Shown here: positions 43,670 to 53,077 of the stretch, in pieces
Numbering within the stretch: the stretch's first letter is position 1
How the letters are laid out: the number at the start of each line of letters is the position of its first letter
Assembly: GCF_014281125.1 (NCBI RefSeq)
Contig: NZ_JACOEA010000001.1
Coordinates: 62,001-126,000, forward strand
Reading direction: 5' to 3'
Source: Lawsonibacter celer
Lineage (GTDB): Bacteria; Bacillota; Clostridia; Oscillospirales; Oscillospiraceae
DNA: 64,000 bases
Notes under the pieces: model-generated
Databases searched by the model: none
The model's input: only the letters and a program-made list of their open reading frames with translations
Told to the model about the DNA's origin: nothing
Made by a program: the position numbers and the translations under genes

Positions 43670-43916
43670 AGGCTGCCTCCAAATCTGACGTCATTGTCAA
43701 ATACGCCGTGCGGTTGACTTGTTGCATATCTAACCATGATAAATTATAGCGATTTCGGGCAGATTCGTAAATGCTTCACAGCCGAATTTTTTAAGTTTTA
43801 TGTTTCCTCTAAATTTCCTCAGGGGATTTCGGGTAAATTCGTCAAGGTTTGCGGCAGACCTGTTCTGCATAGAGACAGGCAGCGCGGGAATAGGCTTTTG
43901 GAAGGAGGTGTAGCCT

Positions 43917-44552
43917 ATGCTCAGCGCATGGATCCTGCTCATGGTAAATGGCTTGTTTTTTACCCTGCGCCTCTCTGGAGGCACAGGTACCTTCCCGCGG
44001 CCGCTGAAGGCGGAGGAGGAGCGGGAGTGCCTGGAACGCTTTGCTCAAGGGGACATGGAGGCACGCAATAAGCTGATTGAACACAATTTGCGTTTGGTGG
44101 CGCATATCATAAAGAAATATTATACTGCCAATGGAGACCAGGATGATTTAATCTCCATTGGAACCATAGGGCTTATTAAAGGAATTTCCACCTTTAAAGC
44201 GGATAAAAATGTCCGCCTGGCAACTTATGCGTCGCGATGTATTGAAAATGAGATATTGATGTACTTCCGTGCGCAGAAAAAGCTGCAGGGCGAGGTTTCG
44301 CTGTCTGATTCGATCGACGGAGAGGGGGAGAACAACTCTCTCTCCCTGATGGATGTGATCCGCGTAGATGACAATATGCTGGAGGAGCTGGATGCCCGGG
44401 ATGCCTGCGCTAGAGTGAGAAGATGTGTGGCATCCTGTCTGGATGAGCGGGAGAATATGATCATCACGCTCCGATACGGCCTCAATGACCGCCCGCCCTT
44501 GACTCAGCGGGAGATTGCCGCGCGCTGTGGAATCTCCCGCTCCTATGTATAG
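43917..44552 (+). CDS. sigK: Sporulation sigma factor K, 5' part (interrupted gene)
   Basis: 211 residues of sigma-K, the late mother-cell sigma factor. An N-terminal hydrophobic stretch (MLSAWILLMVNGLFFTL) resembles the pro-sequence of pro-sigma-K. Region 2 has NLRLVAHIIKKYY, DLISIGTIGLIKGI and LATYASRCIENEILMYFRA. Region 4 is cut inside the helix-turn-helix after GISRSYV by a TAG (44550-44552) that belongs to an inserted element. The missing 20 residues and stop lie at 53015-53077. Joining at ATGTAT gives a 231-residue protein of normal family length. GGAGGTGT precedes the ATG. Unexcised, the product lacks part of the -35-binding helix. Confidence 0.95.
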   Translation: MLSAWILLMVNGLFFTLRLSGGTGTFPRPLKAEEERECLERFAQGDMEARNKLIEHNLRLVAHIIKKYYTANGDQDDLISIGTIGLIKGISTFKADKNVRLATYASRCIENEILMYFRAQKKLQGEVSLSDSIDGEGENNSLSLMDVIRVDDNMLEELDARDACARVRRCVASCLDERENMIITLRYGLNDRPPLTQREIAARCGISRSYV

Positions 44553-44574
44553 CGCCGCCACTAATGTAAACGAT
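44545..44574 (+). other. Left attachment site of the sigK element (attL)
   Basis: Core ATGTAT (44545-44550), 14 spacer bases, then TGTAAACGAT (44565-44574). The arm is the mirror image of the one at the right end, also 14 bases from its core. Confidence 0.85.
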
Positions 44575-44639
44575 GCCCGGAGGGCCAGATAGGCTCCCCG
44601 GGCATCAGTGTTTAGATTATTTAGTTAAGCGGCCACTCA

Positions 44640-46571
44640 TCAGTTAAGTACGTTTATTGTCCAACCATTATCAGCCAATAATTTTTGAGTATCAGCATCC
44701 ACGAATTCGTTTGGAATGGCCAAACATAGTAAGGCTGTTGCCCTCGACATAGCCACATATTGACACTTAAGCCGTCCCAAGTTTGTTTTTGTTGTTTTCT
44801 TCGGAGGCTTTCCGCAAAGATAGTTCAGTATAGACTTGATATTATGGGCACTTGAAAATGTTTCTAAAACCAAGGTTGCTAAATGTGTACGACCTTTAAC
44901 AGAATGTATACTTCCGAATTCCAGATATATACTACGCCCAGTATCAGAATCTTGGTAAATATAGTTGTTAACCTTTGGATGTGGTTTGCTGTCATCACAT
45001 TCGAGCGATACTTCATCTACCCAATTCAAAAGTGACCTGTCTCGAGAAGTTAAGGATAAATCAAATAGCTTAAGTAAATCGTCGACCTTATTAATGACCG
45101 AATTCCATTCTTCTTTTGTTTGAAATCTCGTAAGTGCAAGATCTAACATTAATTGTCTATAAACTGATCGCTTCTCATCAGGGAGTGTTTTTTCGAGAGC
45201 AATAAATGTGTTATTCGTAGGCATGACAAGATTGCTTCCTGCTGCTCGATTTATTACTCGGCACATGCCTTTAGCGATCCAGTTAACTAAGCATGACATA
45301 TCTCCAGAATAGGAAAATTCAGATAGTCCAATTCTGAAATAATCAACAAAGTATCTCTGAAATTGATTTTTTGATGTTTTTGTCGGGTTGTAGTTTGACC
45401 AATAATCATATATCCCTTTGGGAAAATGTTTTTCTGGAGTATCGTCGGACTTTTTATGAACCATGCCAACTACATGACACCCAAGTTTAGCGTTAGCTAT
45501 TAGCTCTTCATCAGAAAAGGTGTTTAGAATTAGCTTGCCAAATTCATCAATTACGCAAGAGGCTTTGTCTTTTGGAAACAAAAATATAGTGTGTTGAATG
45601 TTTCTATCAGAAAAACTATTATTTGTTCCATGCATTTGTTCTTGCGAGATAGCAACGCCGTTTGCAAGAGCAGCAATTCTATTGTCAAATCTTCGGCTTT
45701 CACTTAACACCAGAGGATTGCTTCTCGGGAACTCTGAATGCTGAACATCTTCGTTGACATAGTTGTATATTGCTTGGTTGCTATCTCCGAAACCTTGACG
45801 AACTGTTTTTACACCATCACCAGGAAATGCCTTGTGAAGCAGATCCCATAAAAGAGAATTTGTATCTTGGGCTTCATCGATGAAAAGAAGAGGAAAGCGT
45901 TCTTGTATACCTTCGGCGATCGTTGGGTGTTCGTTTAATACCTTTTGGGCGAGAAACAACATTTCGTCAAATGTAAAAAAGCCCTTCTTTTGAGAAACGG
46001 ATATTACATTTAAGAGTTCTTCTCGGGTTTTACCTTGTTTGCTCCAATCAATATCTCCCCAAGTTTTATGGTATCCGCATAGCTTTTTATCTTTATAATT
46101 CCTTTCGAAATATTTTTGGGTTTTGGGAGATAACATTTTCCAACGCAATGATTTAACATAATCCGTATCAATCATTTTTATTGATATTCCCTCTGACCGC
46201 AGCCACGGAAGTCCAATAAAAGTATCGAAGAAAGAGTGTAAAGTGCCCACAAAATGAGGATAGGAAAGTAATTTTTTACCTTCGACTGTATTTCCTAATT
46301 TATCCTCAATTTCTTCTCTGGCAACATTAGTGTGGGATAAAACACAAATTCCTGCATTTGGAAATGGCCACTTTTTTGCGAGAATAGCCAGTTTAGCTAC
46401 TAATGTCGTTGTTTTACCACTGCCGGGAAATGCTTGTACATCAATCGACTCTAAGTTCTTGATTACAGTTTTTCGAGAATCATCAAACTCAATGTTATTG
46501 CCCATTAAAGATGCGACCAATGCTACGTCATCATCAGTAATATGTATATCTTTAAGTCTGTCTATACTCAT
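44640..46571 (-). CDS. gajB: UvrD-like helicase, GajB-type
   Basis: A 643-residue SF1 helicase. Motif I is AFPGSGKTTTL (near 47), Ia LSHTNVAREEI, II LLFIDEAQDTN (near 230), III GFGDSNQAIYNY, V SIHSVKGRTHLATLVLET (near 555) and VI YVAMSRATALLCLA. It starts three bases after the stop of the OLD nuclease gene, so the two are translated together. In Gabija, GajB senses DNA ends or nucleotide depletion and works with GajA. It is longer than the Bacillus GajB prototype (about 494). AT-rich, unlike the flanking genes. Confidence 0.82.
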   Translation of the reverse strand: MSIDRLKDIHITDDDVALVASLMGNNIEFDDSRKTVIKNLESIDVQAFPGSGKTTTLVAKLAILAKKWPFPNAGICVLSHTNVAREEIEDKLGNTVEGKKLLSYPHFVGTLHSFFDTFIGLPWLRSEGISIKMIDTDYVKSLRWKMLSPKTQKYFERNYKDKKLCGYHKTWGDIDWSKQGKTREELLNVISVSQKKGFFTFDEMLFLAQKVLNEHPTIAEGIQERFPLLFIDEAQDTNSLLWDLLHKAFPGDGVKTVRQGFGDSNQAIYNYVNEDVQHSEFPRSNPLVLSESRRFDNRIAALANGVAISQEQMHGTNNSFSDRNIQHTIFLFPKDKASCVIDEFGKLILNTFSDEELIANAKLGCHVVGMVHKKSDDTPEKHFPKGIYDYWSNYNPTKTSKNQFQRYFVDYFRIGLSEFSYSGDMSCLVNWIAKGMCRVINRAAGSNLVMPTNNTFIALEKTLPDEKRSVYRQLMLDLALTRFQTKEEWNSVINKVDDLLKLFDLSLTSRDRSLLNWVDEVSLECDDSKPHPKVNNYIYQDSDTGRSIYLEFGSIHSVKGRTHLATLVLETFSSAHNIKSILNYLCGKPPKKTTKTNLGRLKCQYVAMSRATALLCLAIPNEFVDADTQKLLADNGWTINVLN

Positions 46572-46574
46572 ACT

Positions 46575-48482
46575 TTATCCCCCAATGACATACTTAATTG
46601 CTTCGTTTAAATATGAGGGAATTGCTTCTTTTAAAGCCTCCGGCTTGTCCTTAAATTTTTGGCTAATTTTCGAGGCAAGCATTTGTGCAAAATCAGCTTT
46701 TGATGCCTTCTTAGATGTAAAATAACTATAGAAATATGCAGCTTTTTCCTCTTTTGTTGATGCCGCATCTAATGATTGGATCAGATCCGCTTTTTTTGTT
46801 ACCCAGTTTTCCTTTTTATAAGAAACACTAATCAATGCATCAATTAGAATATCCTTCATATCGGGATGTTCTAAGCCAACATGTGCAAGATCATACTCGA
46901 GAGTCCAATGATTAGATACAAAGGTTTTTACCAATTGGCCATCGGCACGTTTCTTTATTTCCGCAATGTGATTCTCAGCTTCTTCAGGGGTAAAGTCGCT
47001 TTCTGCTCGCCATTGACGGTCCGACTTATCAGGCCAAGAGGAGCTGTCGGTTGTATAGTTCTTATTAATACAAATAGCCGGAGCACAATCAGGCATGACA
47101 TCTCTATCTGTGACACATGCAACTCGAACATTAAGGAGATTAGATTCATCGGTTCTTTGGAATATCTTTGCATAGCGGCGCAAACCAACACCTCTAACGT
47201 CTACAAGAGAAACTCCATAGTCCGTAAAACTGTGTCCAAGTAGACTTGCAAGTGCGGGGAGCAGCAATGCTTCACCGGGGCCTTCAACAACAATAACACT
47301 TCGTGCAAAGAATAGATTTGCTTTTGTAGCATCTAAATACTTTTCAAGGAACCAGTAGTCATCCGCTTCTAATTTTGTGTTTCCTTCTGCTAAAGAAAAA
47401 GTCTTACCATCCTTAATGATAATTATATTCGCCAGTTTTACAACAGAAGCCAGTAATGGAGAATGCGTTGTAATAATAATCTGTTGATTTGCAGTTGCTT
47501 CCTCTAATGATTGAACCATTTTGAGTTGTCTCTGTGCGTGAATATGTGCTTCGGGTTCTTCGATTAATAGAAAAGAGGAGCGATTTGCTTTTTCTGCTTC
47601 TTTATGGAGAAGAAGTTCGCAGGCCATACTTAATATGTTGCTGGTTCCCAAACCAACTTTACCCTGCATTGAACTTGCATTTTTATCAACTGATAAGTCC
47701 AACTTTTCAAGCAATGCATTTATTTTTTGTAATTCTTTACTTCGAGAGTCTGCAACTTCGAATCGTGTTTTTATTTCGTCTTGTTTTAACAGCAATTGTG
47801 TACTCAGTATTTCTTCCATGCTGCTATTAACTGTTTTTAATACTGGATGATTGACTAACAGATTATTAGAGAGATTTGTAATACCAAGCAAGGAGAGTTC
47901 CTTCAAATCCATGTCTGGCTGATATTCATCTTTTCCGTCGGTCAAAGTAGGAATATGTTGAATGATTTGCGATAATCTGGAATGTCGTCCAGACTGCATA
48001 TCACTATAGGCATCACGTAAGGCACGTAAATATGTAACACGAATAAGTTCTCGTGCTTCGGCAGACGGTGCAGGTCCAGTTCCTTGTTTACCAGACGTTA
48101 AATTCGATATTGAACGTGGAGGTTTGAACGTGGTAATGTATTTGCAATTCCAGTAAAGATACAGGGACGGAACCATCTGTTCAGCTTGGGTTTCATATGA
48201 TAAGCATTCAAGAAAAGCCGCTTGCTCATCAGGAGTAAGATTCGAGAATTTACAAACGATGGAAATTTCTTTTGTTGTATCCTCATTATGAAAATCTGTA
48301 CTTTCTATACGGTACCACCCTAAATCGGTAGTGCCCAATACAATTCTGATAGCATCAAGTATCGCAGACTTACCTGAATCATTTTCACCTACTAAAACAG
48401 TAAGACCAGGATTGAAATCGACAATATGAGTTTGGTCATCGAAACATCGGAAATTTTTAATTTGAATGGAAGATAGATACAT
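46575..48482 (-). CDS. gajA: OLD-family ATP-dependent nuclease, GajA-type
   Basis: A 635-residue protein. The N-terminal ABC-type ATPase has Walker A GENDSGKS (32-39), Walker B LLIEEPEAHIHAQRQ and the His switch IITTHSP. The C-terminal TOPRIM nuclease has VVEGPGEALLLPALA (near 400) and VACVTDRDV (near 457). This is the GajA architecture: nucleotide-gated DNA cleavage during phage infection. AGGAGG lies eight bases before ATG 48482; an earlier in-frame ATG lacks a site. Partner helicase directly downstream. A class 2 OLD/UvrD pair outside strict Gabija is the alternative. Confidence 0.83.
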   Translation of the reverse strand: MYLSSIQIKNFRCFDDQTHIVDFNPGLTVLVGENDSGKSAILDAIRIVLGTTDLGWYRIESTDFHNEDTTKEISIVCKFSNLTPDEQAAFLECLSYETQAEQMVPSLYLYWNCKYITTFKPPRSISNLTSGKQGTGPAPSAEARELIRVTYLRALRDAYSDMQSGRHSRLSQIIQHIPTLTDGKDEYQPDMDLKELSLLGITNLSNNLLVNHPVLKTVNSSMEEILSTQLLLKQDEIKTRFEVADSRSKELQKINALLEKLDLSVDKNASSMQGKVGLGTSNILSMACELLLHKEAEKANRSSFLLIEEPEAHIHAQRQLKMVQSLEEATANQQIIITTHSPLLASVVKLANIIIIKDGKTFSLAEGNTKLEADDYWFLEKYLDATKANLFFARSVIVVEGPGEALLLPALASLLGHSFTDYGVSLVDVRGVGLRRYAKIFQRTDESNLLNVRVACVTDRDVMPDCAPAICINKNYTTDSSSWPDKSDRQWRAESDFTPEEAENHIAEIKKRADGQLVKTFVSNHWTLEYDLAHVGLEHPDMKDILIDALISVSYKKENWVTKKADLIQSLDAASTKEEKAAYFYSYFTSKKASKADFAQMLASKISQKFKDKPEALKEAIPSYLNEAIKYVIGG

Positions 48483-48625
48483 ACATTTCCTCCTCATAGG
48501 TGCTGTTGTTGCAAACAATTTTCCCAACTAAAGTATACAACTTTTGGGGAACAATAGCAATCAACAAACCTATTGTTTGGAATGATGGAACGGCGATTTG
48601 GAATAAACCCAAACCGCCGTTTAAC

Positions 48626-48832
48626 TTATTGATGGATCACAGGATCCTGAATTGTTACTGTGTAGCATATAGTGCCTATACCTCTGATTAGAGACTGCAT
48701 CTTTTCTTCAAAAGCATCAGAAAACTTATGCTGACATTCGTCGGGAGGTGGCAAGCTGTCGTTGAGTGCCGTAGCCAGTTCAAATGCTGCCTGCTGTAGT
48801 AATTCTTCGGTAAAAACATCGTTGGGAATCAT
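48626..48832 (-). pseudogene. Truncated small gene (membrane/anti-sigma-like N-terminus)
   Basis: 68 residues: MIPNDVFTEELLQQAAFELA, then NDSLPPPDECQHKFSDAFEEKMQSLIRGIG. This N-terminal pattern occurs in clostridial proteins that continue into a membrane helix and outer domain. Here the frame decays after about residue 50 and stops at the border of the defence genes. AAAGGAGG before the ATG is intact. It looks like a gene cut when the nuclease/helicase pair arrived. Confidence 0.5.
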
Positions 48833-49003
48833 AACAAGCCTCCTTTATGTACACATGATTTAGTTTTCGTACATCCGGATCTCTGCTCCGGTTTAACTAT
48901 AATAACGATTCAAATGCCGCATTTTGGACACCTGCCGTCAAAAATAATATCAAAACTGGGGATGCTATGCTTAAGCCGCCAAGACGAGAAGGAGGTAACA
49001 AGC

Positions 49004-50176
49004 ATGGCATCAATCGTTCAACGGAACAAAAGCTTCAGCGTGGTGTACACCATATACGATGGAGATAAGAAGAAACAAAAATGGGAGACCTATCATTCCT
49101 ATGAAGCTGCCCTCAGGCGAAAGGAACAATTGGACTTAATTCAGCAACATGAGAAAGAGCGGGCGCAGTACCGGGAAGGAACTCTGGCGCAGTTTCTGGA
49201 GGAATATGTGGAACTGTACGGCCGCATCCACTGGGCCTGTTCCACATACACCAGCAACGAAGGGCTCATTCGGAACTATGTTGTTCCGTTTATGGGAAGT
49301 ATGCGGCTGTCAGAGTTCAGCCCCAAGGTAATTGCAGCGTTGTATGGGAAATTGCAGTCTGATCCTAAAATCACGCCCTCTGTGTTGACGAACATTCATA
49401 AGTTGCTGCACAGTGCATTTGAACAGGCAGTATTGTGGGAGTATGTTCCAAGGAACCCATTCCGGAAAGCAAATGTTCCGAAAGCTTTCCCGACTGAAAT
49501 CCCGATGCTGACTACTGATGAAATTAAGATATTGATCCAGAACTGCGACAACCATATGCTTTCTATTGCAATACATCTGGCTTTTGCCGGTTCCCTACGA
49601 AAAGGTGAGATCTTGGCGCTGACCTGGGATGATGTGGACTTCCAGAAAGGGACTGTTTCTATCAGCAAGACATTAAAACGTGTCCGCAGGGATGCGGTGG
49701 ATGTGCTGAACGGAAAGGATATTCTCTACCAATTTCCCTCAGTTTTTGATGAAGGGCGGACGGTCACGGTGTTGAAGCGCCCTAAAACCAAATCTAGTAT
49801 CCGAACCGTATATCTTCCTGATTATGTGCTGGATGCATTGCAGGAGTGGAAGGGTACACTGAAACCAGTCAAGAGAAACCAGCCGGATCTGATTCTGCGA
49901 TATTCCAATGGCAGGCCCCTCTCGGAGGAAACCTTGCCCCGTTTGCTGGAAAAGCAATTGCTGCAACTTGGACTTCCGGTAGTGTCCTTTCATAGTTTGC
50001 GGCATAGCAGCATCAGTTACAAGTTGGTGCTGACTGGTGGTAACATCAAAGCAGTACAGGGTGATTCAGGTCATGCGCAGGCTGAGATGATTACAGAGCG
50101 GTATGGTCACATTATCGATACCTGCCGTAGGCAGTGCGCCCAAGACTTTGAGAAAGAATTCTATAAGGGTATCTAA
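49004..50176 (+). CDS. Tyrosine-family site-specific integrase
   Basis: A 390-residue protein. The N-terminal arm/core-binding region (TLAQFLEEYVELYG...LSEFSPKVIAALYGKL) is of the phage/ICE SAM-like type. The catalytic domain has Arg in AGSLRKGEILAL, the box SFHSLRHSS and the nucleophile Tyr in ITERYGHIID. All catalytic residues are present. AAGGAGGTAAC precedes ATG 49004; the frame continues upstream without a site. It is a second, independent recombinase inside the sigK element, probably from a mobile element that inserted earlier. Confidence 0.9.
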   Translation: MASIVQRNKSFSVVYTIYDGDKKKQKWETYHSYEAALRRKEQLDLIQQHEKERAQYREGTLAQFLEEYVELYGRIHWACSTYTSNEGLIRNYVVPFMGSMRLSEFSPKVIAALYGKLQSDPKITPSVLTNIHKLLHSAFEQAVLWEYVPRNPFRKANVPKAFPTEIPMLTTDEIKILIQNCDNHMLSIAIHLAFAGSLRKGEILALTWDDVDFQKGTVSISKTLKRVRRDAVDVLNGKDILYQFPSVFDEGRTVTVLKRPKTKSSIRTVYLPDYVLDALQEWKGTLKPVKRNQPDLILRYSNGRPLSEETLPRLLEKQLLQLGLPVVSFHSLRHSSISYKLVLTGGNIKAVQGDSGHAQAEMITERYGHIIDTCRRQCAQDFEKEFYKGI

Positions 50177-50180
50177 AATG

Positions 50181-50210
50181 AGCCGTCTGACGCAAATCAG
50201 GCGGCTTTTT
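50181..50210 (+). terminator. Terminator after the integrase gene
   Basis: AGCCGTCTGA, loop CGCAAA, TCAGGCGGCT, then TTTTT. Confidence 0.85.
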
Positions 50211-50303
50211 GCAGTAGGATGGAGCATCCCCCTCCTAAGAAGATGGAGTGTCGTTCGATTCCGGTCTGATTAGCAAAATATATCCTGAAAGGAGGATGAA
50301 TTA

Positions 50304-51089
50304 ATGAACACAATTATGAAATTAAGTGAACTGGCTGCATACATGAAACGGGCAGTCGAAACCTATTCTCAGCGTGATTATGAACAGCTGCATCAGGAAC
50401 TGTGTGCCAGATGTGATCAGCTGATCATGGAGGCGTTCATGGATCGTCATCCTGGATGGAGCATTGTGGAAGGTAATGCGGCCTGCATGATGTACCTCTA
50501 TCGCAACTGGTCGTTCAGCAGAAGAGTGGAAGAGAATGTTGCACAGCTGAGTGCTCTGGCTAATGATATTACTGAGAATTACGACGATTGTGATGATAAG
50601 TTTCTGACAGTAGAAGCGGCTGCGGAAACCATGAAGGTTGCAGAGCGTGTTTATGATTTTTCTAAACGAGTTCTATGTAAACAGCATTTGTTCATTTTCC
50701 TATTCCATGCAAAACACCGCACAGAAGATTCCTTCTGCCGTTGCATGAATATGACTGACGGTAGTGTGGCGGCGGATATCTACATGCTGATTCCACACAA
50801 AGACCATGAAGCGACTCCACAGAGTATGCTTCTCCATGAACTGGGCCATTGCGTGAACATCGCTCTGACCGGTGATCCGGAAGTGCCTCCTGAGGATTTC
50901 GCTCTGATAATGAAGCTTATTGAAGTTGATAAAGTCGAGTGCGACATTCCTGAGTTTTTTGCTCACTGCTTTGCAATGAGTTTGCTGATTGAACCTGAAT
51001 TGCTAAGTGTAGACCCGTTTAAGATGGTTCCGCAAAATCACAAGCAGCTGTTCCGAGAGTATTGTCAACTGAAAATTCAAAACCTTTAA
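50304..51089 (+). CDS. Putative zinc metallopeptidase (HELGH)
   Basis: A 261-residue cytoplasmic protein. The C-terminal half has MLLHELGHCVNIALTGD (HExxH, near 190) and, about 45 residues later, DIPEFFAHCFAMS, whose Glu could be the third zinc ligand. This is the zincin pattern seen in ImmA/IrrE-like and phage-type peptidases, but no XRE domain or repressor gene accompanies it. The N-terminal 150 residues are helical and unrecognised. AAAGGAGG precedes the ATG. A role in controlling the element is possible but unproven. Confidence 0.6.
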   Translation: MNTIMKLSELAAYMKRAVETYSQRDYEQLHQELCARCDQLIMEAFMDRHPGWSIVEGNAACMMYLYRNWSFSRRVEENVAQLSALANDITENYDDCDDKFLTVEAAAETMKVAERVYDFSKRVLCKQHLFIFLFHAKHRTEDSFCRCMNMTDGSVAADIYMLIPHKDHEATPQSMLLHELGHCVNIALTGDPEVPPEDFALIMKLIEVDKVECDIPEFFAHCFAMSLLIEPELLSVDPFKMVPQNHKQLFREYCQLKIQNL

Positions 51090-51118
51090 GTGATCTGTTA
51101 TGCAGCAGGTCACTTTTT
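51088..51118 (+). terminator. Terminator after the metallopeptidase gene
   Basis: AAGTGA...TCACTT with a T run, overlapping the gene's last codon. Confidence 0.7.
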
Positions 51119-51119
51119 C

Positions 51120-51157
51120 ATTCCCTAAAACTGTGCATCTGCACACATTTTAGGAAT
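51120..51157. repeat. Inverted repeat upstream of the recombinase module
   Basis: ATTCC(C)TAAAA and TTTTAGGAAT enclose a second small dyad TGTGCA-TC-TGCACA. It is a nested dyad about 75 bases before the small gene and could be an operator or hairpin. Confidence 0.55.
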
Positions 51158-51203
51158 GGCTTTCATTTCTCAACATGGACAGGCAAAAAAATCTGCTCCT
51201 TTA

Positions 51204-51211
51204 CATACGAT
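51204..51211 (+). promoter_or_regulatory. Candidate mother-cell sigma (E/K-type) -10 element
   Basis: CATACGAT matches the sigma-E -10 consensus (CATACAAT type) at seven of eight positions. Transcription would start at about 51217, just ahead of the ribosome site of the 47-residue gene. The -35 is not well defined, so this rests mainly on the -10 and the context. Confidence 0.42.
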
Positions 51212-51231
51212 GAACAAAGGAGGTAGAACGT

Positions 51232-51375
51232 ATGAAACAAACTTTGCCTGTAGTGCATTGCACATATACCGAAGCTGAAAAGAGCCTCGCAGAGCTGCTG
51301 GAGGAGTCTTTTCAGCTTTATCTTATCCGCATCCTTGCGACACCTGAGAAGCCTGTTGTACAATGTTTGCGATGA
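51232..51375 (+). CDS. 47-residue protein, possible excision factor
   Basis: MKQTLPVVHCTYTEAEKSLA is followed by ELLEESFQLYLIRILATPEK. It has a strong AAAGGAGGT site and ends 27 bases before the recombinase start, so it is cotranscribed with it. Small proteins in this position accompany many serine recombinases. Skin-Cd uses a small element-encoded recombination directionality factor for excision; this is a candidate by position only. Confidence 0.6.
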   Translation: MKQTLPVVHCTYTEAEKSLAELLEESFQLYLIRILATPEKPVVQCLR

Positions 51376-51402
51376 GTGGCTGCTTATTTCAAGGAGGAAC
51401 CT

Positions 51403-52980
51403 ATGTACTTAGAAATAAGCAACCCAATGGATTACCATGTCGCATTGTACATCCGATTATCGAAGGAGGATGAAACTGAAGGGCCATCCCAAAGCGTAAC
51501 AAATCAGAAATCTCTGCTCAACGAGTTCGTTCAGCAGCACCGTTTATCCGTCTATGATACCTACATCGATGATGGCTGGAGCGGTACCAGTTTTGACCGT
51601 CCGGACTTTCAACGCATGATTGGAGACATCGAAGCCAAGAAGGTCAACATGGTCATTACCAAAGACCTGTCCCGTCTGGGTCGTGATTATATCATGACCG
51701 GCCACTATATGGAGCGGTACTTCCCTGAAAAGAGAGTGCGTTACATTTCCTTACTGGACGGCATCGACACCGGCGTAGAGTCAACTGCCAACGACATTAC
51801 CCCGTTCCGTGCTATCATGAATGACATGTACGCCAAGGATATTTCCAAGAAGATCAAATCTGTCAAACGGGATAAGCAGCGAAAAGGTCAGTTCATTGGC
51901 GGCAAGCCTATGTATGGCTATAAGATGCACCCGACAGAGAAGAACAAAATCGTCATCGATGAGGAAGTGGCGCCTATCGTGCGAAGGATCTTTGCTATGG
52001 CACTGGATGGCATGAGCTGCCGAAAGATTGCAGCAACTCTTAATGAAGAAGGCGTTCCTACACCGGCTACCTACTGTGGCTGGAATATGGGGCGCAAAGG
52101 TCCCTATGCTGGACTCTGGTCAAGTGAACGTATCTCTGAGATGTTGCAGAATGAAACCTACCTGGGCAATATGGTTCAGGGACGAACGGTGAAAATCAGT
52201 TACAAGTCCAAGAAATGTCTGAAGCAGGATCGTGAAAACTGGGTTGTGGTTGAGAATACCCACGAGCCGTTGATTGACAAAGAGACTTTTCAGAAGGTGA
52301 GGATGCTGGTCAACAGCCGAAAACACACCCGCAGCAGAACCCACGACTTCCTATTAAAAGGCTTGATTTTCTGCCACGAGTGCGGCTATCCGATGGCGGT
52401 GCTGAATCGTCCGCCGGTATCTGGTGAAGATCGACTGTTCTTCGTGTGCCGAACCTATCAGCGCTTCACGAAAGCTGGCATCTGTACCTGCCACTCAATT
52501 AAAGAGCAGGTGGTTACCGAAGTAGTTCTATCAAAAGTGAAAGAGGTCTGCGCAGCTTATCTTGATCCAAAGAAGCTGCAACCTATCGCTGCCGATGCAG
52601 TGGAGAAAGCCAGAAAAGCAGAAAACCATGAAGCAGAGATCCAAACCATTCAAAGTAAGATCGATAGTCTAACTGCCAACCTGGATAAGATGTATATGGA
52701 TCGGCTGAGCAGCCTGCTGGCTGAAGCTGACTTCGAGCGCATCTATCAGCGGGTCAAAATGGAACGCAGTTCTCTGGAAGAAAAGCTGAAAGAGTTAGAA
52801 GCACAAAAGGAAAGCCCGGTCAGCACCGAAGACCGAGCCAGAAAACTGGTTCAACAGTTTCTGGACTCCGCCTACACCAGCCGGGAACTCTTGGTCAGCC
52901 TCATCGAGCGAGTGGAACTGACCGAGGACAAACAAATCATCATCAAATTCCGCTTCCGAGAGTTGGAAGCAATTTCTTAG
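51403..52980 (+). CDS. Large serine recombinase of the sigK element (SpoIVCA-like)
   Basis: A 525-residue protein. The catalytic N-domain has YIRLSKEDETEG with the nucleophile Ser (about 20), then ITKDLSRLGRDYIMTGHYME. The recombinase domain has GYKMHPTEKNKIVID and GMSCRKIAATLNEEGVPTP. A zinc ribbon (CHECGYPMAV...CRTYQRFTKAGICTCHS) and a coiled coil (EIQTIQSKIDSLTANLDKMY) follow. AAGGAGGAA lies before ATG 51403. The stop is 29 bases from the attR core, the usual position for an integrase acting on that end. Expected to excise the element and restore sigK. Confidence 0.93.
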   Translation: MYLEISNPMDYHVALYIRLSKEDETEGPSQSVTNQKSLLNEFVQQHRLSVYDTYIDDGWSGTSFDRPDFQRMIGDIEAKKVNMVITKDLSRLGRDYIMTGHYMERYFPEKRVRYISLLDGIDTGVESTANDITPFRAIMNDMYAKDISKKIKSVKRDKQRKGQFIGGKPMYGYKMHPTEKNKIVIDEEVAPIVRRIFAMALDGMSCRKIAATLNEEGVPTPATYCGWNMGRKGPYAGLWSSERISEMLQNETYLGNMVQGRTVKISYKSKKCLKQDRENWVVVENTHEPLIDKETFQKVRMLVNSRKHTRSRTHDFLLKGLIFCHECGYPMAVLNRPPVSGEDRLFFVCRTYQRFTKAGICTCHSIKEQVVTEVVLSKVKEVCAAYLDPKKLQPIAADAVEKARKAENHEAEIQTIQSKIDSLTANLDKMYMDRLSSLLAEADFERIYQRVKMERSSLEEKLKELEAQKESPVSTEDRARKLVQQFLDSAYTSRELLVSLIERVELTEDKQIIIKFRFRELEAIS

Positions 52981-52985
52981 GGCCA

Positions 52986-53015
52986 ATCGTTTACAATAGG
53001 CGGGGCGGAATGTAT
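52986..53015 (+). other. Right attachment site of the sigK element (attR)
   Basis: ATCGTTTACA (52986-52995), 14 spacer bases and core ATGTAT (53010-53015), the mirror image of the left site. Confidence 0.85.
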
Positions 53016-53077
53016 CGCGCATTGAAAAAAAGGCGTTAAAAAAGCTGGAGGAGGCGATGGGACAGGGTGAACAGTAA
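53015..53077 (+). CDS. sigK: Sporulation sigma factor K, 3' part
   Basis: Twenty codons SRIEKKALKKLEEAMGQGEQ and TAA. They complete region 4.2 of sigma-K (GISRSYV then SRIEKKALKKL, a close match to other sigma-K proteins). The fragment has no start of its own; it is read only after excision of the element joins it to 43917-44549. Confidence 0.93.
   Translation, partial: SRIEKKALKKLEEAMGQGEQ

Follow-up and report, generated by a model that had tools for sequence, protein, structure and literature searches.

In Bacillus subtilis, sigK is split by the skin element, which carries its own large serine recombinase (LSR; SpoIVCA) beside an exon and has a very short recombination core; skr, the small gene for its recombination directionality factor (RDF), overlaps the start of spoIVCA, as described in PMC6957869. 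By sequence, this element occupies a mid-gene AATGA site at about codon 111, and PMC10745906 describes it as 48 kb long and phage-like. The element of Clostridioides difficile, skinCd, combines the LSR CD1231 with the RDF CD1234, which is reported to be under sigma-E and SpoIIID control (PMC5025042), and that paper, from 2016, describes such elements as 'an exception in clostridia'. Further descriptions include island IV of Bacillus cereus biovar anthracis, a 22 kb non-phage element with type I restriction-modification genes that lies in sigK at base 195 in the numbering of PMC10745906 and is excised in sporulation, and the gin element of B. cereus ATCC10987, a 28.6 kb non-prophage island in another sporulation gene, gerE, with three serine recombinases, the factor GirX and restriction genes (PMC5595907). 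Here we describe an 8.5 kb element that interrupts sigK in a 64,000-nucleotide stretch of Lawsonibacter celer DNA (hereafter, the window). The supported best reading is a sigK-intervening element of the skin type that bears an LSR and cargo of its own; the element belongs to a large, horizontally mobile family and carries anti-phage-like cargo, so that the first-pass annotation of the locus had understated the case. The two parts of the gene and the ends of the element lie as follows:

43917 to 44549, + strand: sigK 5' exon, codons 1–211, with SigK profile matches; an in-element stop, TAG, follows at 44550–44552
44545 to 44574, + strand: attL, the shared ATGTAT (core GT at 44547–44548) and the element arm ATAGCGCCGCCACTAATGTAAACGAT
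52986 to 53015, + strand: attR, the element arm ATCGTTTACAATAGGCGGGGCGGAAT and the shared core GT (53012–53013) in ATGTAT (53010–53015)
53014 to 53077, + strand: sigK 3' exon, the wobble base of codon 211, the last 20 codons and the stop

The first-pass annotation held that sigK is divided by an 8.5 kb element, that the two ATGTAT copies join exactly and in frame, and that an intact LSR sits by the right end; all of this was borne out. The 211-codon open reading frame (ORF) at 43917–44552 matches SigK, with profile alignments that stop before the end of the family (NF004471, E 1.7e-74, positions 6–213 of 235; TIGR02846, E 2.3e-73, positions 4–211 of 227), and the last 20 codons and stop are found at 53015–53077. 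The ATGTAT copies start at 44545 and 53010, a spacing of 8,465 bp that gives the size of the element, and removal of these 8,465 bp produces an in-frame sigK of 231 codons with the C-terminal end GISRSYVSRIEKKALKKLEEAMGQGEQ (also given as ISRSYVSRIEKKALKKLEEAMGQGEQ); only precise removal restores the full frame. The interruption of sigK after codon 211 is thereby confirmed. An uninterrupted relative, which the annotation had suggested seeking, was found in a genome located via the gene adjoining the window sigK (L209): its SigK is 86% identical to residues 1–230 of the joined product, and across the insertion site it reads ISRSYVSRIEKKALKKL, the same motif as in the joined window gene. The LSR is an open 525-codon frame with Resolvase, Recombinase and zinc-ribbon domains, and its gene ends 5 bp before the right arm. 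Both junctions share the short identical core, GT in ATGTAT, flanked by element-specific arms that recur in relatives, and the two sides of GT in the reconstituted attP (ATCGTTTACA ... TGTAAACGAT) form an imperfect inverted repeat. As far as structure allows it to be tested, the window element has the features of a skin element.

Like the B. subtilis skin, the window element splits sigK, keeps its own LSR beside an exon, uses a very short core and has a small RDF-like ORF before the LSR, but it differs in site (codon 211), core (GT), size (8.5 kb) and cargo (a pair of defence genes). With skinCd it shares an LSR accompanied by a small RDF or RDF-like ORF (PMC5025042); unlike in C. difficile, the window LSR directly follows that ORF. 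Moreover, sigma-K of C. difficile is made without a pro-sequence and the LSR of skinCd is transcribed from a sigma-A promoter, whereas the window SigK has a pro-sequence-like N-terminal extension. Island IV resembles the window element in carrying non-phage, defence-type cargo within sigK (PMC10745906), and differs in size and position; gin resembles it as a non-prophage, LSR-associated island in a sporulation gene (PMC5595907), and differs in the gene, the number of recombinases and the size. The annotation had called the locus an independent skin example with different cargo. Independence is supported by the codon-211 site, distinct from the two other sites seen here, and by an LSR with just 20–24% identity to four LSRs compared from the ~codon-111 site, and the cargo, a Gabija-like pair, differs from that of the phage-like B. 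subtilis skin; the element is not, however, a lone example.

LSR homologues are very numerous, with 7,961 of 8,000 scoring at E 1e-20 or better. A scan of species-representative genomes yielded 179 relatives of the window LSR, of which the best 80 (~73–97% identity) were kept. The sigK 3' exon lies no more than about 0.2 kb downstream of the LSR in 64 of these 80, and an inverted LSR has the sigK 5' exon alongside in a further 10. Because 74 of the 80 best relatives occupy the same sigK position, a chance origin of the window split can, on this comparison, be excluded. Judged by their junctions, close LSR relatives sit at the same spot of sigK in dozens of mostly gut-derived genomes, among them the isolates Blautia wexlerae MSK.20.46, P. 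capillosus An827, Oscillibacter ER4, Oscillibacter An907, Colidextribacter OB.20 and B. pullicaecorum ET57, as well as one 4.3-Mb contig. The core is GT in 64 of 65 forward junctions including the window, the exception (L072) being AT; GT in forward and AC in inverted junctions is not an independent test, as a shared core must read so in either orientation. Since the bases to the left of GT track the element and the base to its right can be any of A, C, G and T, as a host wobble base would be, the predicted crossover is narrowed to the GT dinucleotide.

Movement of this lineage is evident from sequence identities. Between the window and B. wexlerae MSK.20.46 (L006), the LSRs are 95.4% and the integrases 90.0% identical and the left arms are the same, against 49.2% identity for the SigK 5' exons; for L001 the corresponding values are 96.6% (LSR) and 56.9% (SigK). 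These values clearly point to horizontal transfer of the codon-211 LSR lineage between distant hosts, and one mobile codon-211 lineage spans several families. Occupancy varies among 20 stretches from genomes matching the gene next to the window sigK: five contain intact sigK (L209, L217, L218, L227 and L228), two are split at codon 211 (L212 and L222) and three at about codon 111 (L214, L215 and L224), one is ambiguous (L225), and nine are without a sigK found within the stretch.

The genes and predicted signals for excision, together with a box before sigK, are:

43873 to 43880, + strand: AGACAGGC box upstream of sigK, predicted by eye, resembling the box before the RDF–LSR pair
51177 to 51211, + strand: predicted mother-cell promoter of the RDF–LSR pair, GGACAGGC ... 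CATACGAT
51232 to 51375, + strand: 47-amino-acid (aa) ORF, candidate RDF, conserved directly before the LSR, without family match
51403 to 52980, + strand: LSR, 525 aa from ATG 51403; the alternative GTG 51376 gives 534 aa

An ORF of about 45 aa with the loose pattern V-x-C-x-Y ... ESF-x-x-Y/F-L lies directly before the LSR at 66 of 81 loci including the window; 11 are without an ORF meeting the search (one of which, L008, has a tblastn match), and four have an ORF that is unlike it or in another frame. The mean proportion of nonsynonymous differences (pN) was below that of synonymous differences (pS) in five of five groups of this ORF (0.031 versus 0.169 in the window's group), and the conserved ORF, 47 aa in the window, is a likely candidate for the RDF. 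Upstream of the RDF–LSR pair, CATAnnnT was present in 44 of 47 non-redundant regions, counted in fixed windows and taken from 73 that were long enough (shuffle mean 7.7, maximum 15; 11.3% of random windows). CATA-type -10 elements are described at C. difficile sigma-E and sigma-K promoters (ATA-N16-CATATATA; CATATAAT; PMC3789822), and CATAnnnT would be a promoter element typical of mother-cell sigma factors, with a predicted role at the LSR. GGAC-like boxes were also seen by eye, and left uncounted, upstream of many sigK genes in the group.

We consider it probable that this is a skin-type sigK-intervening element, which the LSR and the predicted 47-aa RDF would excise in the sporulating mother cell, rebuilding sigK. 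At integration, the LSR would have recombined attP with an attB in the SRSY-V-SRIE codons of sigK, in region 4. During sporulation, the 47-aa ORF and the LSR would be co-expressed from the mother-cell promoter, with its CATAnnnT -10 and an upstream ACARGCAA box, and their products would reverse integration to give the in-frame 231-codon sigK. The spore would retain the split gene and its cargo. As their loss would be confined to the doomed mother cell, sigK may serve as a low-cost docking site for exchanged, unrelated cargo.

Selection on the gene is consistent with this mechanism. Between split sigK genes, pN is far below pS (0.084 and 0.741 for the window and L212; 0.108 and 0.768 for the window and L222; 0.053 and 0.705 for L212 and L222), as it is between intact sigKs, and this supports rather than proves continued function of the split gene because synonymous sites are near saturation and the insertions are undated. 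The SigK matches listed in 44 LSR genomes mostly end at profile positions 211–214, with SigE matches reaching ~226; the curated SigK cut-off is uninformative here, being reached neither in these 44 nor in 80 genomes drawn from one family (see below), many of which have intact sigKs. The listed matches include no second intact sigK for any of the eight hosts represented by strain records (G006, G027, G028, G029, G035, G036, G040 and G044).

Several observations weigh against excision in the mother cell as set out above. A direct sigK junction at the LSR is missing in six of the 80 loci: L073 leaves its contig inside an apparent L072-type junction, L007 and L077 have the sigK 5' exon on the same contig, the LSR of L042 runs into the element end, and the junctions of L061 and L019 are ambiguous. 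A search of viral contigs for the attP pattern gave no matches. The candidacy of the 47-aa ORF rests on position and coding signal, its role being a predicted one. The box ACARGCAA followed by CATAnnnT speaks in favour of a mother-cell promoter, with occurrences in 19 of the 47 upstream regions (shuffle mean 0.0, maximum 1; 0.0% of random windows), but this count describes rather than tests, as the box was first noticed in these same sequences. In two metagenome-assembled genomes (MAGs), uninterrupted sequence is also present: a further, intact sigK (L084) in G016 and an unbroken sigK 3' half (L156) in G037. On SpoIIID, the observations point both ways. The B. subtilis SpoIIID consensus, WWRRACARNY, is fitted by the GGACARGC box and matched in 14 of 47 upstream regions (shuffle mean 4.1, maximum 11). 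The shorter RRACARNY is moderately enriched (24 of 47; shuffle mean 11.5, maximum 20; 16.8% of random windows). In favour of the mother-cell reading, 40 of the 44 genomes tested, made up of 43 LSR hosts and G097, have a SpoIIID match at E 1e-10, and among 14 control genomes only B. subtilis does; however, only nine of the 40 matches passed the curated cut-off, and the other four genomes show none at E 1e-10. The window box GGACAGGC fits the C. difficile consensus given in PMC5025042, KRTAACARK, poorly, and for this reason SpoIIID is put forward only tentatively as a regulator of the RDF–LSR pair.

In two loci, L194 (at 15938) and L198 (after 9302), the left end of an element, and not the sigK 3' exon, comes after the LSR; such an attP-type junction may represent either a free circle or two tandem elements, and the terminal overlap of an excised circle was absent from L042/L194. 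At L019 (3801–5420), the codon-211 element family is present in a MAG that bears the label Spirochaetales; its junction has GCTATGTA and no sigK exon was recognised there, reflecting either another target or a misbinned contig.

Among the rival explanations, the one that survives best regards the locus as an ordinary integrative element with an attachment site in sigK, excised on its own signals (phage infection, stress or chance) and not with sporulation, the loss of sigK being tolerated or occasionally repaired. Its clear horizontal transfer, second integrase and defence cargo, the attP-type junctions just described and the constitutive expression of the C. difficile LSR (PMC5025042) are all in keeping with such an element. 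We nevertheless judge it unlikely, in view of the mother-cell type -10 element in 44 of 47 upstream regions, the purifying selection indicated for split sigK, and the fact that insertions strike the same gene at three sites, for at least two of which the LSRs are unrelated. A still less credible possibility is that insertion killed sigK in hosts that no longer complete sporulation, leaving the exons as relics; several hosts, such as Blautia, are not generally considered spore-formers, but the 3' exon motif, itself used for detection, is in frame at 64 of 64 forward junctions, split genes differ from one another far less at nonsynonymous than at synonymous sites, the LSR is open and SpoIIID is matched in 40 of 44 genomes. 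An assembly or binning artefact, which the many MAGs among the relatives and the two states held together by G016 and G037 might suggest, has next to no probability with the same junction in several isolates and in one 4.3-Mb contig.

Between attL and the excision genes, the window element contains:

44640 to 46571, - strand: GajB, Gabija UvrD-like helicase, 643 aa (PADLOC PDLC00105, E 4.1e-249)
46575 to 48527, - strand: GajA, AAA ATPase with OLD-like TOPRIM, 650 aa (PADLOC PDLC00080, E 3.7e-189; PF20469)
48626 to 48832, - strand: 68-aa ORF without family match; similar ORFs in L001, L005 and L006
48914 to 50176, + strand: tyrosine integrase (PF00589, PHROG 1)
50304 to 51089, + strand: 261-aa protein with an HELGH (HExxH) motif, without family match

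As in Gabija, gajA (ATPase-TOPRIM) and gajB (UvrD-like helicase) are adjacent, and their profile matches are near whole-length, that of GajA starting at residue 16; a location within a predicted excisable element would be unusual for this system. The pair has a G+C content of 37.7%, compared with 57.8% and 61.9% for the flanks. The tyrosine integrase is 89–94% identical in L001, L004 (part), L005 and L006, and the HELGH protein co-occurs with it in some elements. No phage structural genes were found among six element proteins compared with Pfam or among five window proteins, a set without GajA and GajB, compared with PHROGs. A phage origin was considered and set aside, the best-ranked recombinase in the phage collection being just 36.6% identical.

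Cargo was surveyed in 19 complete codon-211 elements, including L006 and the window, with part of the cargo ORFs scanned. Excluding Fic, methylase and candidate models, eight of the 19 had named-system PADLOC matches at E 1e-20 or better: Gabija in the window, SIR2-HerA in L022, Pycsar cyclases with PycTM in L028, Ppl in L080, Kiwa in L001 (KwaB E 4.9e-78, KwaA 5e-14), a SIR2/ThsA-like protein in L034, a PtuA-like ATPase in L006 and CARF6 in L062. Two of 31 further proteins matched SoFic (best E 1.8e-43), and Fic proteins recur in several elements; metabolic genes are carried by L008, L017 and L046. A tblastn search of the remaining LSR loci at E 1e-4 detected no relatives of GajA or GajB. By this survey, cargo is swapped between recurrent LSR–RDF ends and often resembles anti-phage systems. 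At the other extreme is a minimal sigK element of 2.4 kb (L011, 9257–11637), with little beyond a small ORF and the LSR.

Two other positions in sigK are also occupied. At the ~codon-111 site, exon 1 ends ...RCIENA and exon 2 carries ...A-NEILM; AATGA, reported as the sigK site in B. subtilis and B. cereus AH820 (PMC10745906), is present there, near base 333. At the ~codon-65 site, sigK is cut before KKYY, and the first 64 codons were located elsewhere in the genome for 10 of 11 such splits, on the same contig in six (G026, G029, G039, G090, G092 and G101); for the remaining one, G070, they were not found in the genome. It may or may not correspond to the B. cereus biovar anthracis site, because the numbering differs: AATGA is at base 423 in PMC10745906 and at ~333 here.

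Thirteen genomes have two of the sites filled at once, and sigK is therefore in three pieces. Nine combine 111 and 211 (G005, G010, G025, G035, G036, G060, G061, G097 and G127, with G025 and G036 assigned from profile matches only and G127 without an exon 1 search), and four combine 65 and 211 (G024, G026, G029 and G039). All three pieces lie on a single contig in G097, G029 and G039. In the 4.3-Mb contig of G097, the elements measure 10,936 and 21,755 bp, and joining the pieces, with the middle-site cut lying within a shared A run, yields a SigK of 229 aa that has 85% identity to the window's. In an even draw of 80 genomes from the family of P. capillosus An827, itself included as the centre, split sigK was confirmed by sequence in at least 21: 10 at ~111 (three also at 211), seven at ~65 and four at 211 only, with G119 resting on exon 2 only. 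Read from match coordinates and omitting the ambiguous G456, G491, G497 and G535, 10 genomes besides the centre look split at ~111 in a class-wide draw (n = 69), two of them also at 211, and in the B. wexlerae family five of 69, again not counting the centre, look split, with no split at 211 among them.

The codon-211 site and its new lineage, the widely transferred LSR, the swapped defence-like cargo and the double splits are new within a known kind, the skin elements. In the open-licence literature, a scope that excludes subscription papers and preprints, we found no report of the codon-211 family, of sigK genes split twice or of defence genes carried within sigK in Oscillospiraceae. We lean slightly towards a broader view, in which sigK in gut Clostridia is a DNA-level multi-intron gene with three conserved docking sites (~65, ~111 and 211) that take unrelated excisable islands, double occupancy calls for two independent site-specific excisions in the same mother cell before any sigma-K is made, and the codon-211 family is an anti-phage swap-cassette inherited via the spore and discarded by the mother cell. 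Some sigK genes would require two excisions, and the findings suggest a possible reason for defence systems to reside in a sporulation gene. With 21 of 80 family genomes split, and double splits besides, whether such elements are parasites or regulators becomes testable by comparison, as there is natural variation in insertion state, spore timing and cargo between relatives whose sigK is intact, split once or split twice. Sporulation judged from gene annotation misses a sigK in pieces.

In G456, sigK matches covering 5–144 and 138–226 lie on separate contigs, which suggests a further insertion site near codon 140. In Flavonifractor sp. An82 (G029), where sigK is split at two sites, spoIIID itself is apparently split after ...FGISKSTVH by ~35 kb, its pieces (L231 and L230) lying at ~166.1 and ~131.1 kb of contig C23.

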